Source: Kutzneria buriramensis (GTDB lineage: Bacteria > Actinomycetota > Actinomycetes > Mycobacteriales > Pseudonocardiaceae). From it: 64,000 nucleotides of DNA. The stretch covers positions 1-64,000 of the forward strand of contig NZ_QUNO01000010.1 in assembly GCF_003387475.1 (NCBI RefSeq), in the 5' to 3' direction. Made by a program: the position numbers and the translations under genes. Below the pieces are notes generated by a model that worked only from the letters and a program-made list of their open reading frames with translations, was not told the DNA's origin and made no database searches. Positions 2,112-54,242 of the stretch are shown here, piece by piece (within the stretch, counting starts at the first letter, position 1; every line of letters starts with the position of its first letter).

Positions 2112-2615
2112 TCAGCCGACCCGGTGCAGCCAGGTCACCGGCGCGCCGTCGCCGGCCCGCCGGAACGGCTCCAGCGCGTCGTCCCACGGCTTGCCCAGCA
2201 GCGAGTCGACGCCGTGAGCGAACGACTCGCCGGCGCGGGCCTTGGCGGCCAGCGCGCGCAACTGGTCCTCGGCCACCACGATGTCGCCGTTGGCGGCCGC
2301 GCGGGCGTGCCAGAGCCCGATGCCGGGCGCGAAGCAGAACCGCTCCCCGTCCACGCCGGGGCTGGGCTCCTCGGTGACCTCGAATCTGATCATGGGCCAT
2401 GCCTTGAGCGCGCCGGACAGGCGCGCGCCGGTACCCGTGTCGCCGGTCCACGCGCACTCCGCCCGCAACTGGCCGGGGGCGGCCGGTTGCGCGGACCAAC
2501 GCAGGTCGGCCCGGACCCCGAGGGTGCCCGAGATGGCCCACTCGACGTGCGGACAGACCGCAGACGGCGACGAGTGGACGTACACCACGCCACTGGTCTG
2601 ACCACGGTTGTTCAC
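2112..2615 (-). CDS. DUF3145 family protein
   Basis: Small soluble actinobacterial protein of 167 residues. The arrangement GVVYVHSSPSAVCPHVEWAI at the N-terminus, the central QPAAPGQLRAECAW, and LLGKPWDDALEPFRRAGDGA near the C-terminus match the DUF3145 family as I know it from streptomycetes. The family is conserved across Actinobacteria and has no established function. The GTG start at 2615 is supported by GGAGG at 2622-2626, 6 nt upstream. The upstream region (2616-2890) is shared with the divergent gene starting at 2891. Confidence 0.85.
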   Translation of the reverse strand: MNNRGQTSGVVYVHSSPSAVCPHVEWAISGTLGVRADLRWSAQPAAPGQLRAECAWTGDTGTGARLSGALKAWPMIRFEVTEEPSPGVDGERFCFAPGIGLWHARAAANGDIVVAEDQLRALAAKARAGESFAHGVDSLLGKPWDDALEPFRRAGDGAPVTWLHRVG

Positions 2616-2890
2616 TGCTGACCTCCGCACTCGCCGAGGGACGTCTTCCCCTACGCCCTCACGCGTGCCGCGATCACCAGCGGATCAAGCCGATGCGCCA
2701 TTCTGCCCCGTGATCGGGCCCAACCGCCACCGCAACCGGCACATCCCGGGACAGAGATCACCCGTGCGAGGGGGACCGACACGGGTGAGGTCGATCACAG
2801 GCCGGGACGTGGACGCAACCGGCCCGCCGGTTACCGTTGTGCGGTCCGCATTCGTGGGCCGGACCGATGTGGATCTGGGGAGGTGGCGCC

Positions 2891-4039
2891 GTGCGACTGG
2901 TGCGACTGGGCGACGCGCAGTCCGCGGTGGCGGCCGACGTCAAGTCGGCCCTGGCGTCGTGGGGCGGCGGCGACGCCGTGCTGGGCGGCGTCGCGCTGGC
3001 GGGCTACCTGCCGCCGGGGCGGCCGCGGCCGGTGGACATGCTGGTGCTGCTGCCCAACGCGGTGGTGGTGATCGCCGGCGTCGACCTGCCCGACCCCGCC
3101 ATGAAGCTGGACGCGCCGCTGGCCGGACAGTGGAAGATCGACGGCTGGCCGCTGGTCGGCCCGGACCCGAACGCCAATCCCGCCGCCGAGGCGCTCGGCG
3201 TGGCCGAGGCGGTCGCGGAGGTCGTGCGGGACACCGGGTTACCCGTTCGGCTGGTGCTGGCCGTCGGCCCTTACGTCGGTCAGGTGACGCAGCCGCAGCT
3301 GGACCTCGACCGCGGCATCCGCGTGCTGCACCCGATGCCCACCACGCTGCTGGCCGCGGTGCGCGACGTCGCCGGCGACCCGCCGGCGTGCACCGCCGAG
3401 CAGGCCGGCGGCCTGCTCATCCACCTCTGCCCGGACGAGCGGTTCACCACCGACGAGCTGCTCGCCGAGGGTTTCCCCGCCGCCCAGGCCGCGGCCCCGC
3501 CGGCGCCGGCCAAGAAGCGCCGGCGCTGGCTGCCCATCGGGGCGGCGGCGCTGCTCGGGGCGCTGGCCGTCGGCAGCGTGATCGCCGCCCTGACCACCGG
3601 CGGCCCCTCCCCCGCCGCGGCGGACGCCGCCTACACCCGCGTCGCCGACGTGCACGACGGCGCCAACTGCGCCGAGCACGCGTACGGGGACGTGCAGGTG
3701 TGGCTGAGCCAGCACCCGTGCACCGATCTGCGGCGGTGGAACTACCGATCCGGCGACGCCGGGGTCGCCATCGCCGAGGTGCGCTTCGCGGCACAGGAAG
3801 CCGCCGTCGAGTTCCAGGCGGCGGCCGCGAAGCCGGGCGGCGGCGGCGTCAACGAGTTGGTGCGGGAACGCCCGTGGCCGGGCGGCCCCGTGTCGTTCGA
3901 CAACGCGGCCTTCGACAGCAACCGGTCGGGCGGGACCGTGAGACTGGTCGAGACCGTCTGGATCGGACGGCCGAGCACTGCCGACGATCCCGCCCTCGTG
4001 GCGCTGGCGAAGCGCATGCTCAAGCTGGCCCTGTCCTGA
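2891..4039 (+). CDS. Membrane protein with degenerate NERD-like N-terminal domain
   Basis: Protein of 382 residues with a cytosolic N-terminal domain (about 1-200), a basic stop-transfer patch KKRRR, one transmembrane helix (about 213-235) and an extracytoplasmic C-terminal domain with two Cys residues (NCAEH and HPCTD) that could form a disulfide. The N-terminal pattern, a hydrophobic strand with VLLPNAVVVIAG, then GQWKIDGWPL and a following NPAAEA helix, resembles nuclease-related (NERD) domains. The catalytic E-x-K of active NERD nucleases is missing (AGV instead), so if related it is probably inactive. The GTG start at 2891 is preceded by GGGGAGG at 2877-2883. Function unknown. Confidence 0.75.
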   Translation: MRLVRLGDAQSAVAADVKSALASWGGGDAVLGGVALAGYLPPGRPRPVDMLVLLPNAVVVIAGVDLPDPAMKLDAPLAGQWKIDGWPLVGPDPNANPAAEALGVAEAVAEVVRDTGLPVRLVLAVGPYVGQVTQPQLDLDRGIRVLHPMPTTLLAAVRDVAGDPPACTAEQAGGLLIHLCPDERFTTDELLAEGFPAAQAAAPPAPAKKRRRWLPIGAAALLGALAVGSVIAALTTGGPSPAAADAAYTRVADVHDGANCAEHAYGDVQVWLSQHPCTDLRRWNYRSGDAGVAIAEVRFAAQEAAVEFQAAAAKPGGGGVNELVRERPWPGGPVSFDNAAFDSNRSGGTVRLVETVWIGRPSTADDPALVALAKRMLKLALS

Positions 4040-50104: not shown

Positions 50105-51598
50105 TCAGAACGGCCAGATGTCCCGGCCCCCGGCCTCCATCAGCGGCACCATGCCGAACGCCGCGTCGGACAGGCCACCGAACGTGAACCGCCCTTCAGT
50201 GTGCCCGAACTCGTAGCCGGCCAGGTTCCACGTGTAGACCGGCACGCCGGCCGGCACCACCGCGGTCGGCAGCGTGCGGCCGTTGTGCTGCTCGTCCGTC
50301 ACGATGACCACGCGGTCGTGGCCACGGTAGAACTTCCGCAGCGCGCCGACCGTGTCCGTGCCGCCGAGGTCGCTGAACCGCTTCTGCACCACCGGCAGCA
50401 CCGACTCGCCCGACCGCAGCGCGACCCGCGCCGCCGTGCTGCCGAACTGCACCAGCTCCGCCTTCGCCGCGCGCCGCGCGATCGCCGTGCCGAACACCGC
50501 CGCCGCGTCCGCCCTGGTCAGGTCGGAGTTGCGGGACACCTTGCTGTAGAACATCGATCCCGACCGGTCGACCAGCACCAGCGTGCGGCCCGGCAGGCTC
50601 GGCACGTTGGCCAGGCTGGCGTCGAGCGCCCGCTCCAGCGCCCACGCCCAGCGCAGCGACGGGGCCGCCCGGTACGCCGACAGGAACCGCATCGGCAGCT
50701 GCCGGGACCGCGCCACCTGCTCGGGATCCGCCAGCTTCGCCGCGACCGTCGCCGCCACGTCGTCCGGGACGCCCGCCTGGTCGAAGTTGCGTAGGTTCCG
50801 CAGCAGCGCCATGTAGCCCATGGTCGGGATCAGCGCCGTCCAGACCTCCGCCGTCAGCGGGCCCTGGAGCCAGCCGGCGACCGCCTCCCACGTCATGCCG
50901 GCGCCCTTGAGCACCGCCACGGCGTCGCCCGCGAACAGCTCACGGCGGCGCTCCACCGGCCACGCCAGCAGTTCCTCGCGCGCCTTGACCACCGGCAGAT
51001 TCGTGGGGATTTCCGCCACGTTTCCGTATCGACGGTCGAGGGCGTGCGTGAACAGCGCACCCTGCCAGTTCTCCGCCGGCTTCGGGTGCGTCAGGTTCAG
51101 CACGTCGCCCATTCGGACGCCGCGCGCCTCACTGTCCCACTTCAGCAGCGAACGCTCGTCATAAAGGCGGCGCACCGCGTCGCCGATACCGCGCCGAACC
51201 GGCTTCGGAATCGCGCGTCCGTGCCGCGCCAGCCAATAGGACAGGAACTCACCCGGCTCATCCGCCCGCTGGAGAACCGAATTCACGACCTGACGGGTCA
51301 GACCGGGTTCGGTGCGGGCGTGCGCGAATTCCGCCGCGCCCACGATCGACGCCGAGCGCATGTTCGCGGTGCCGCGGAGCCAGCCGAGCAGCCGCGCCGT
51401 CCACTCCGGGTCCTCGACCGTCGCGGTACGCACGAGCTGCGTGAACCGGTCGTCCCGCTGCTCGGCGGTCTCGTAGAAGCTGCGCTCGCCGACCATGTTC
51501 GCCACGGCGAGCAGGAACAGCTCGTGCTTGACGCCGCGCTTGAGCGCCACGCCACCCTCGTGCGTGACCGGTCGACGCAGCACGTTGAACTTGGCCAT
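50105..51598 (-). CDS. rsr: TROVE/vWA domain Ro60 orthologue (Rsr)
   Basis: Bacterial Ro protein of 497 residues. The N-terminal TROVE domain (about 15-330; HEGGVALKRGVKHELFLLAVANM, FLSYWLARHGRAIPKPVRRG) forms the HEAT-like ring that binds Y RNA and misfolded RNA ends. The C-terminal von Willebrand A domain has the MIDAS motif DRSGSM (about 345) and VIVTDEQHNG. Bacterial Rsr works with exoribonucleases such as PNPase, guided by Y RNA. Start ATG 51598, the first codon of MAKFNVLRRP. A permuted tRNA-like RNA lies about 50 nt upstream on the same strand and is the likely Y RNA. No RtcB gene in the window. Confidence 0.93.
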   Translation of the reverse strand: MAKFNVLRRPVTHEGGVALKRGVKHELFLLAVANMVGERSFYETAEQRDDRFTQLVRTATVEDPEWTARLLGWLRGTANMRSASIVGAAEFAHARTEPGLTRQVVNSVLQRADEPGEFLSYWLARHGRAIPKPVRRGIGDAVRRLYDERSLLKWDSEARGVRMGDVLNLTHPKPAENWQGALFTHALDRRYGNVAEIPTNLPVVKAREELLAWPVERRRELFAGDAVAVLKGAGMTWEAVAGWLQGPLTAEVWTALIPTMGYMALLRNLRNFDQAGVPDDVAATVAAKLADPEQVARSRQLPMRFLSAYRAAPSLRWAWALERALDASLANVPSLPGRTLVLVDRSGSMFYSKVSRNSDLTRADAAAVFGTAIARRAAKAELVQFGSTAARVALRSGESVLPVVQKRFSDLGGTDTVGALRKFYRGHDRVVIVTDEQHNGRTLPTAVVPAGVPVYTWNLAGYEFGHTEGRFTFGGLSDAAFGMVPLMEAGGRDIWPF

Positions 51599-51645
51599 TT
51601 GTTCCTACCCCCTTTCGGCGATCGCGGACGCGTCCGAGATCAATG

Positions 51646-51750
51646 TCGGTGACGGTTTTTATGCCAACTGCTCTGCCAATTGAGCTACCGGTTGCCCGGG
51701 CGGGACTCGAACCCGCAACCCGTCGATCCGGAAGTAACCGTCGCCTGCGC
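51646..51750 (-). ncRNA. Permuted tRNA-like Y RNA (YrlA-like) upstream of rsr
   Basis: Read on the minus strand: outer stem GACGGTT (51742-51736) with AACCGTC (51657-51651), extended by GG/CC across a C-A mismatch. Inside, a T-arm (51716-51700: GCGGG, loop TTCGAGT, CCCGC), then a 4-bp stem CCGG/CCGG closed by the GNRA loop GCAA (51699-51688), then a D-arm (51685-51670: GCTC, AATTGGCA, GAGC). So T-arm precedes D-arm and the acceptor is replaced by a capped helix: a circularly permuted tRNA fold with the anticodon side open to the outer stem. This is the design of bacterial YrlA RNAs, whose bulged outer helix binds Ro. Ends are approximate. Confidence 0.8.
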
Positions 51751-51840
51751 ACCGGACACGCCCGCGACCAGCACTCCCGAGTTCATTCACGCCCGACAGT
51801 GTTTTCATTAGAGGAAGTAACCGTTGGGCTTCGCACCGGA
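51730..51840 (-). repeat. Direct repeat upstream of the Y RNA
   Basis: GGAAGTAACCG at 51730-51740 and 51813-51823, each followed within 8-9 nt by CGCACCGGA (plus strand), a similarity over about 28 bp. The left copy is the 5' strand of the Y RNA stem; the right copy has no matching 3' strand nearby and may be a remnant of a second Y RNA or a promoter element. Confidence 0.55.
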
Positions 51841-51890
51841 AGTGCTCCGCAATGCTAGATCTCTCGGCGCGTCGCGCGCGACGGATTTAC

Positions 51891-52502
51891 TCACGCCCCG
51901 ACGAGCAGGCCGATCCCGACCACCGCCATCGTCGCCGCCACCAGGCCGTCCAGCACGCGCCAGGACGAGGGCTTGGTGAACAACGAGCTCAGCAGGCGAG
52001 CGCCGAAGCCGATCGCCGTGAACCAGCACAGGCTCGCCAGCACCGCGCCGATCGCGAAGTCCCAGCGCAGCGCGCCGTAGCCGGCCGCGATCGAGCCCAT
52101 CAGCAGGACCGTGTCCAGATAGACGTGCGGGTTCAGCCAGGTCATCGCGAGGCAGGTCAGCGCCGCCCGCTTGCGGGAGCCCGTCGTCGCGCCGTCCACC
52201 GACATGCTCGACGGCTTCATCGCCCGCTTGGCCGCCAGAAATCCGTACGACAGCAGGAAAAGACCGCCCACCACGGCCACCGCCGTCACCGCTGTCGGCC
52301 AGGCCTGGACCAGCACGCCCACGCCGCCCACGCCCAGGCCGATCAGCACCGCGTCCGAGGCGCCGCAGATCGCCACCACCGTCAGCACCGCGTCTCGTCG
52401 GATGCCCTGGCGCAACACGAATGCGTTCTGCGCGCCGATCGCGGCGATCAGGGACATACAGGTGCCGAAGCCCGCCAGCACGACGAGCGCCACGTTGGTC
52501 AT
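51891..52502 (-). CDS. lysE: LysE/ArgO family basic amino-acid exporter
   Basis: Six-helix exporter of 203 residues. N-terminal GFGTCMSLIAAIGAQNAFVLRQGIRRD is the LysE signature, and AMTWLNPHVYLDTVLLMGS is the second conserved motif. Exports lysine and/or arginine when intracellular levels rise. Divergent from the LysR-type gene at 52572, the standard lysE-lysG (or argO-argP) arrangement. Confidence 0.93.
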   Translation of the reverse strand: MTNVALVVLAGFGTCMSLIAAIGAQNAFVLRQGIRRDAVLTVVAICGASDAVLIGLGVGGVGVLVQAWPTAVTAVAVVGGLFLLSYGFLAAKRAMKPSSMSVDGATTGSRKRAALTCLAMTWLNPHVYLDTVLLMGSIAAGYGALRWDFAIGAVLASLCWFTAIGFGARLLSSLFTKPSSWRVLDGLVAATMAVVGIGLLVGA

Positions 52503-53767: not shown

Positions 53768-54242
53768 GGCCGCCACCGCCCGAAGGCTACCGACAACGCC
53801 ACCCGCCCGTGCGCAAATTGCACAACCATGCACTGACCAGGCGATCTCTGTAGGGCGGGTGGGGCTCGAACCCACGACCTGACAGATTATGAGTGTCCAA
53901 GTTCACCCGGCAGGAGTAGCTGAGCAGGCAGTTCGCCGGTAGTTGAGGAAGAAAATACCGCACCAGAGGCACTCGCCCAGCCGAGTTCATGGACAGTCCC
54001 ATGGACAGGTTTGTCCACTATGGATGCTAGCTGACCAGGCTCTACCATTCGACCACAGAACCTGCCAGATGTCAGGCAACGAACCACGCGCAGACATGCG
54101 ACTACGTGAGACGGGTTCATATCATTGCGACCGAATGGGTGATTTGAGGAGTGCGACAGTAACGATGTTCCAGCCATCAGCGAATGTCGCGATGTACCAC
54201 CAGAGTCATATTCCAATAGCTGACCCACAGGAGATGTAGCCA
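53768..54242. other. Left end of the integrated element, non-coding
   Basis: Contains the orphan tRNA 3' half (53852-53900), then about 340 nt without a gene. CATGGACAG occurs at 53988-53996 and 54000-54008 with TGTCCAC just right of it (54012-54018), possible integrase arm sites. GGAGATGTAG precedes the next gene. Confidence 0.5.
53852..53900 (-). tRNA. Orphan 3' half of a tRNA gene (attL-type site)
   Basis: Minus strand: anticodon loop CTCATAA (anticodon apparently CAT), stem TCTGT, T-arm GTGGG-TTCGAGC-CCCAC, acceptor CCGCCCT, discriminator A. No D-arm or 5' acceptor strand lies to the right. Such a piece is what remains at the left end when an element integrates into a minus-strand tRNA gene; the intact gene would then be at the right end, outside the window. 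CCA is not encoded. Confidence 0.75.

Follow-up and report, generated by a model that had tools for sequence, protein, structure and literature searches.

Upstream of the rsr gene of Kutzneria buriramensis, the minus strand from 51857 to 51598 of the window (the whole 64,000-nucleotide stretch of DNA that was analysed) probably carries, on the reading of its sequence, an array of Y RNAs together with the gene of their partner protein, in the order short Y RNA, tRNA-like Y RNA and rsr (probability about 0.85). The genome has a single copy of this array. The comparisons below support the identification of the tRNA-like RNA as a YrlA-type bacterial Y RNA beside rsr. The Y RNA class, its tRNA mimicry and an actinobacterial case, that of Mycobacterium smegmatis, are already in print, as passages in two papers attest (PMC4726728; PMC8394870). 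The K. buriramensis Y RNAs belong to this known class, and what is added here is their true ends, the short companion and the array context (Table 1).

Table 1. Features of the Y-RNA array in the window and, in the last row, of a second RNA locus in the same genome. The window sequence is itself among the training sequences of models R1 and R2, whose scores are given.
Feature	Position	Strand	Basis or remark
-10-like hexamer TAGCAT, putative array promoter	51852..51857	-	Read from sequence; 6 nt ahead of the first stem pair of the short Y RNA
Short Y RNA, without tRNA-like part	51771..51845	-	Model R2 match 51842-51774, 61 bits
Short Y RNA, outer stem GCACTTCC/GGGAGTGC	within 51771..51845	-	Encloses Ro-type internal loop
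Short Y RNA, inner stem GCCC.ACGGT/ACTGT.GGGC; loop with TACTTC	within 51771..51845	-	
tRNA-like Y RNA (YrlA type), full extent	51629..51760	-	Model R1 match 51758-51631, 115.2 bits; RF02553 51741-51643
Outer stem, 5′ strand CGTGTCCG, putative Ro-binding	51753..51760	-	Sequence and covariation of 6/8 pairs
Outer stem, 3′ strand CGGACGCG, putative Ro-binding	51629..51636	-	Sequence and covariation of 6/8 pairs
Inner stem, 5′ strand GG.GACGGTT	51736..51745	-	Helix 2 covariation; GACGGTT = 51742-51736
Inner stem, 3′ strand AACCGTC.CC	51648..51657	-	Helix 2 covariation; AACCGTC = 51657-51651
T-arm GCGGGTTCGAGTCCCGC	51700..51716	-	Helix 4 covariation
Acceptor hairpin CCGG/GCAA/CCGG, GCAA being the permutation joint	51688..51699	-	Helix 5 covariation
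D-arm GCTC...GAGC	51670..51685	-	Helix 6, pairing invariant
rsr, 497 aa, TROVE domain	50105..51598	-	ATG at 51598; Pfam TROVE
RNA region beside DUF7873 gene (L116, own genome, contig C27)	1977-2260	-	DUF7873 at 2319-3053 (-)

The tRNA-like RNA has the build of a YrlA-type Y RNA. Its 5′ and 3′ ends are joined by a stem that contains a conserved internal loop (helices 1 and 2), its tRNA-like domain runs in the order T-arm, acceptor hairpin, D-arm (helices 4-6, with an invariant D-stem), and a TROVE gene lies 30 nt downstream. The original prediction had described a T-arm placed before a D-arm, a CCGG/GCAA/CCGG stem and a GACGGTT/AACCGTC helix, and all are present in the minus-strand sequence. 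The extent it gave, 51646-51750, is short by 10 and 17 nt at the ends, where the outer stem reaches 51760-51629, and the upstream short Y RNA (51845-51771) was overlooked. When the sequence is folded alone, its energy argues only weakly for the structure, both for the span first proposed (z = -1.77, with 9 of 200 shuffles equally good) and for a wider span (z = -1.35, 20 of 200).

Comparison among related loci provides strong evidence. Upstream sequence was read at 58 rsr loci (57 distinct), and 40 tRNA-like elements were aligned with helices for the outer stem, the inner stem, a variable-place hairpin, the T-arm, the acceptor and the D-arm. In this alignment, from which model R1 was built, 93.4% of 1253 cells are paired, and both sides have changed in 21 of 32 pairs. 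The covariation score is 0.382, compared to a shuffled mean of 0.128 and to values no higher than 0.111 when the alignment was slid; all five covariation measures were matched by 0 of 500 shuffles. The outer stem has 8 bp in the window, of which 6 bp covary (columns 1-6/144-149 of alignment A1) and the two outermost are seen in the window sequence only; the six aligned pairs are paired in 97.1% of cells, with changes on both sides in four. The inner stem is paired in 88.1% of cells (both-side changes in 7/9 pairs) and the T-arm in 100% (3/5 pairs), while the acceptor hairpin, the most variable helix, is paired in 95.5% of cells with both-side changes in all five of its pairs. The D-arm is paired in 100% of cells and never varies, and covariation is therefore uninformative on the D-stem. 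The T-arm, acceptor and D-arm and the compensatory stems are kept at homologous rsr loci, where their loss had been named in the original prediction as grounds for rejecting it.

At the default cut-off, Rfam finds no match within the window. With the cut-off turned off, the covariance search proposed in the original prediction gives a match of RF02553 (YrlA) over the full model at 51741-51643 (50.3 bits, E = 2e-10), under the gathering score of 69 bits, which is a curator's cut-off and not a biological feature. The proposal of a YrlA-like Y RNA by rsr thus holds, on the full-length though sub-threshold RF02553 match, the TROVE neighbour and the structure kept at homologous loci. The RF02553 match omits the real outer stem because the outer stem of the Rfam model (acggCg) is aligned onto the actinomycete inner stem (ACGGUU), a placement one helix too far in that was read by comparing the Rfam alignment with the stems from related loci. 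The cut-off of 69 is reached in none of the 150 family genomes, and many partial RF02553 matches of 29.9 bits in these genomes are presumably tandem tRNAs. As anticipated for tRNA finders, which were expected to miss or miscall the element, ARAGORN calls a tRNA-Arg(ccg) at 51690-51758. We regard this call as a false positive, given the permuted arm order and the score of the Rfam tRNA model at the tRNA-like RNA (23.1 bits, under its cut-off of 29). With the covariance cut-offs and tRNA finders now in use, a whole set of actinomycete Y RNAs goes unseen.

The second RNA of the array is recognized by its stem. The stem CCGGTGCG...ACGGTTACTTC, closed by CTCGGG, is repeated 80 nt upstream, around a small loop, and both RNAs share the same paired 5′/3′ stem with its conserved internal loop. 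Across 31 aligned short elements, the inner stem scores 8.03 with its native strands and 6.22 (sd 0.22) with swapped strands, the highest of 30 swaps being 6.77. All 16 family genomes positive for model R2 also have a strong R1 match.

The product of the partner gene matches Pfam TROVE with 59.9 bits (cut-off 23) and aligns with solved TROVE proteins (E = 9e-34) and with Deinococcus radiodurans Rsr (2nvo) at E = 2.1e-6. Its score with the NCBIfam Rsr equivalog, 42.7 bits, is far below the cut-off of 900, which indicates a divergent Rsr. The protein contains DRSGS, which we take to be a MIDAS-type DxSxS motif. The four proteins scanned around the array are TROVE, LysE, GT87 and LysR, and rtcA and rtcB are not among them. 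Since a sigma-70 scan of 51560-51960 returned 0 promoters, TAGCAT is a promoter that we infer; a TAnnnT-like hexamer lies near the corresponding site before the first element in many arrays, though not in all. A terminator pattern is also absent from the scanned interval. Elsewhere in the window, a 45-bp tRNA 3′ fragment at 53850-53894 (minus strand) is identical to the end of tRNA-Met (cat) at contig positions 68633-68677, suggesting that an element of about 14.8 kb has integrated between the two.

In relatives, the array beside rsr is modular. At 56 rsr loci, the window counted, models R1 and R2 find 122 elements, a count that includes loci that trained the models. By simple patterns, 55 of these have both a T-arm and a D-arm, 35 are short, and 32 have a T-arm without the D-arm pattern, a class that may include elements whose D-arms are merely divergent. 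One element is found at 15 loci, two at 21, three at 14, four at 3, five at 1, six at 1 and none at 1, so that at least one is present at 55 of 56 loci, at least two at 40 and a full tRNA-like one at 48. Three loci without a full element (L047, L050 and L051) have a T-arm and hairpin only, and the others are L075 and L070 (T-arm only), L073 and L106 (short only) and L058, the locus without any element, whose rsr has an internal TGA. L106 is a second rsr in genome G383, where full elements accompany the other one. The loci L047, L050 and L051 belong to one genus, and their reduced Y RNAs have a hairpin at the place of the acceptor and lack a D-arm. We dropped from the count L033 (the genome of L062), L032 (the window itself) and L076 (rsr at a contig edge), together with rsr fragments or distant loci (L057, L060, L061, L084-L088, L090-L094, L102-L105 and L107). 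Elements outside the training set that lie beside rsr score 115.9 (L085), 103.4 (L087), 75.5 (L102), 106.2 (L053), 106.6 (L080) and 91.2 bits (L056), and one in phage VanLee scores 94.2 bits.

The RNA and the protein also occur in the same genomes. By BLAST, 31 of the 150 family genomes match rsr, with weak or partial matches in G076, G094 and G110. An R1 match of at least 49.8 bits is found in 29 of the 150, and in 27 of them BLAST gives a clear rsr. G030 and G135 have no rsr by BLAST, yet they carry diverged TROVE genes 156 to 270 nt from the RNA match. With an HMM search for TROVE in 19 genomes and a BLAST search in the others, and with the 49.8-bit threshold picked after the list had been seen, 29 genomes have both, none has the RNA alone, two have TROVE alone and 119 have neither (Fisher p = 5.8e-29). 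Of the two TROVE-only genomes, G026 has an RNA match of 20 bits only and a single TGA inside its rsr, while the TROVE gene of G094 lies at a contig edge, so that its upstream side is absent from the sequence. Just below the threshold, G001 (47.2 bits; L181:2070-2211) and G047 (45.7 bits; L182:2291-2148) each have a well-formed RNA of the permuted tRNA-like type, with a Y-like stem ending GCCCTCGTCGA(C/T)CT(C/T)GATC. No TROVE gene is found in either genome by HMM, and these may be orphan Y RNAs or the RNAs of another protein. In G030, a second likely Y-like RNA (54.2 bits; L117:4191-4324, G030:C1:251190-251323) lies away from the TROVE gene.

In phages, Rsr genes lie in tRNA clusters with Y RNAs near them. 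R1 matches are found in VanLee (L143; 94.2 and 67.3 bits), Atuin (L144; 77.0 bits), GiJojo (L142; 70.2 bits) and Neville (L145; 65.1 bits), and the match in Atuin lies downstream of rsr. In Gordonia phage VanLee, for which a published listing gives one tRNA (PMC8320454), an annotated tRNA-Arg (1626-1697) coincides with the 94.2-bit match at L143:1626-1761. Similarly, an annotated tRNA-Arg of Streptomyces phage GiJojo (1769-1843) coincides with a 49.5-bit match at L142:1765-1909. Since these matches lie beside Ro-like genes, both annotated tRNA-Arg genes probably encode Y RNAs instead, and some of the tRNAs listed for phages are thus probably misnamed.

These comparisons bear on whether the structure is a free RNA. 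It might instead be a cis-acting leader of rsr, such as a tRNA-like attenuator or translational switch, a reading that draws on its location on the rsr strand, 30 nt ahead of the start codon and with no terminator pattern between. We consider this unlikely, as tandem copies are present at most loci, at least two at 40 of 56. In Kutzneria sp. 744, an IS110-type transposase (Pfam 167 bits; L062:1683-2762, minus strand) is inserted between the array and rsr, and in G109 (L120; C1:1930300-1928700) the rsr gene lacks codons 1-66 and has a frame shift, but both RNAs are intact in each case. The retention of the RNAs at these two loci speaks for a role of their own, and the downstream position in phage Atuin and the likely copy far from rsr at G030:C1:251190 also argue against a leader. 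Within the same genus, G019 and G126 have no TROVE gene by HMM and no strong RNA.

The ARAGORN call and the numerous 29.9-bit RF02553 matches would also suit two ordinary tRNA genes that have been broken or fused, so that the 3′ half of one is followed by the 5′ half of the next. This origin is very improbable: the two acceptor strands form a helix that covaries in 5 of 5 pairs, which is not expected of unrelated neighbouring tRNAs, the tRNA model stays below its cut-off, and the element has a conserved framing stem and a tie to rsr. Least probable of all is a chance resemblance, for which the only mildly unusual single-sequence folding could be cited; the Rfam E-value of 2e-10 and five covariation measures that none of the 500 shuffles reached leave it hardly any weight. 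The reading of the locus as two free Y RNAs ahead of rsr is therefore preferred.

For such a Y-RNA array, a working model can be proposed. Transcription would start near 51845, and both RNAs would be cut from one transcript, which may run into rsr. According to sections of two papers, Rsr binds the paired stem of the Y RNA, and the tRNA-like part acts as a tether for PNPase or as a tRNA mimic (PMC8394870; PMC7790460). Here, Rsr is predicted to bind the stem common to both RNAs. In its sequence, the upper part of the longer one resembles a tRNA in which a tetraloop seals the acceptor end and the anticodon side opens into the stem. By analogy, the tRNA-like part may serve as an effector that docks a second protein, as with PNPase in Deinococcus, and may be modified like a tRNA, while the short RNA may occupy or gate the Rsr ring without an effector. 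As the two RNAs share their stem and differ in their heads, one may fill the ring effector-free while the other brings the effector. The arrays themselves, with short, T-arm-only and full elements and with cases where rsr is lost and the RNAs are kept, are natural dissections for testing the role of the tRNA part.

A further set of permuted tRNA-like RNAs lies beside genes for DUF7873. In the K. buriramensis genome, weak matches on contig C27 (R1 37.3 bits, RF02553 32.2 bits) fall just downstream of such a gene (PF25283, 401 bits). Genes for DUF7873 are present in 15 of the 150 family genomes, in 6 of 246 genomes of a phylum sample, in 73 phage and 4 plasmid records and at 17 IMG/VR loci. Loci with the RNA come from Kutzneria, Streptomyces, Nonomuraea and phages (L116, L122, L022, L128, L130-L132, L134-L138, L141 and L146-L167). 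We defined a strict permuted core as a 5-bp T-stem, a 7-bp acceptor and a D-arm pattern. Among 45 stretches downstream of DUF7873 from bacteria and phages, which include two duplicate pairs (L162/L163 and L165/L166), 37 have at least one such core and 20 have two; it is found in none of 4500 shuffled sequences and on neither strand of the window. In 31 aligned RNAs, the acceptor stems are paired in 99.5% of cells, compared to 72.6% and 57.7% when shuffled (maxima 78.6% and 66.8%), and both sides have changed in 44 and 76 cells, while several other helices assigned in these RNAs failed the pairing test. NCCA follows the acceptor in many modules, but not all. Rfam gives only sub-threshold YrlA matches at these RNAs, DUF7873 is named in no paper of the literature searched, and its predicted structure has no clear structural match.

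Through this lead, permuted tRNA mimics might gain a second protein partner. At somewhat less than even odds, we entertain a joint reading in which Y RNAs form a branch within a broader class of tRNA mimics, with a sealed acceptor and an opened anticodon side, that serves more than one protein. DUF7873 would then be the second partner, in actinobacteria and phages, with an RNA of up to two modules that have 7-bp acceptors and often end in NCCA. Enzymes of tRNA processing would cleave at the module end to leave a two-piece tRNA-like RNA, and the tRNA module would act as an interchangeable unit that passes from one ribonucleoprotein to another, often within phage tRNA arrays.

Compared with known systems, the tRNA-like RNA is closest to YrlA (RF02553) of Salmonella and M. 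smegmatis, with which it shares the place beside rsr, the T-arm, sealed acceptor and D-arm, and a 5′/3′ stem with an internal loop; tRNA mimicry is described for YrlA in part of one paper (PMC8394870). It differs in that the Rfam model sits one helix too far in and scores 50.3 bits here against a cut-off of 69. The Salmonella rsr-yrlBA-rtcBA operon likewise has two tandem Y RNAs adjoining rsr, as the section on that operon states (PMC7790460), whereas in K. buriramensis the RNAs precede rsr and the neighbours scanned are LysE, LysR and GT87, without rtcBA. The Rsr/Y RNA/PNPase complex of D. radiodurans (RYPER) also has a TROVE partner, and by analogy its working principle is likely shared, although the Kutzneria Rsr is distant from that of Deinococcus (2nvo, E = 2.1e-6). 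The DUF7873-linked RNAs, which are absent from Rfam, have the same order of T-arm, sealed acceptor and D-arm, but they accompany another protein, have full 7-bp acceptor stems, show no clear Ro-type stem and usually comprise two modules.
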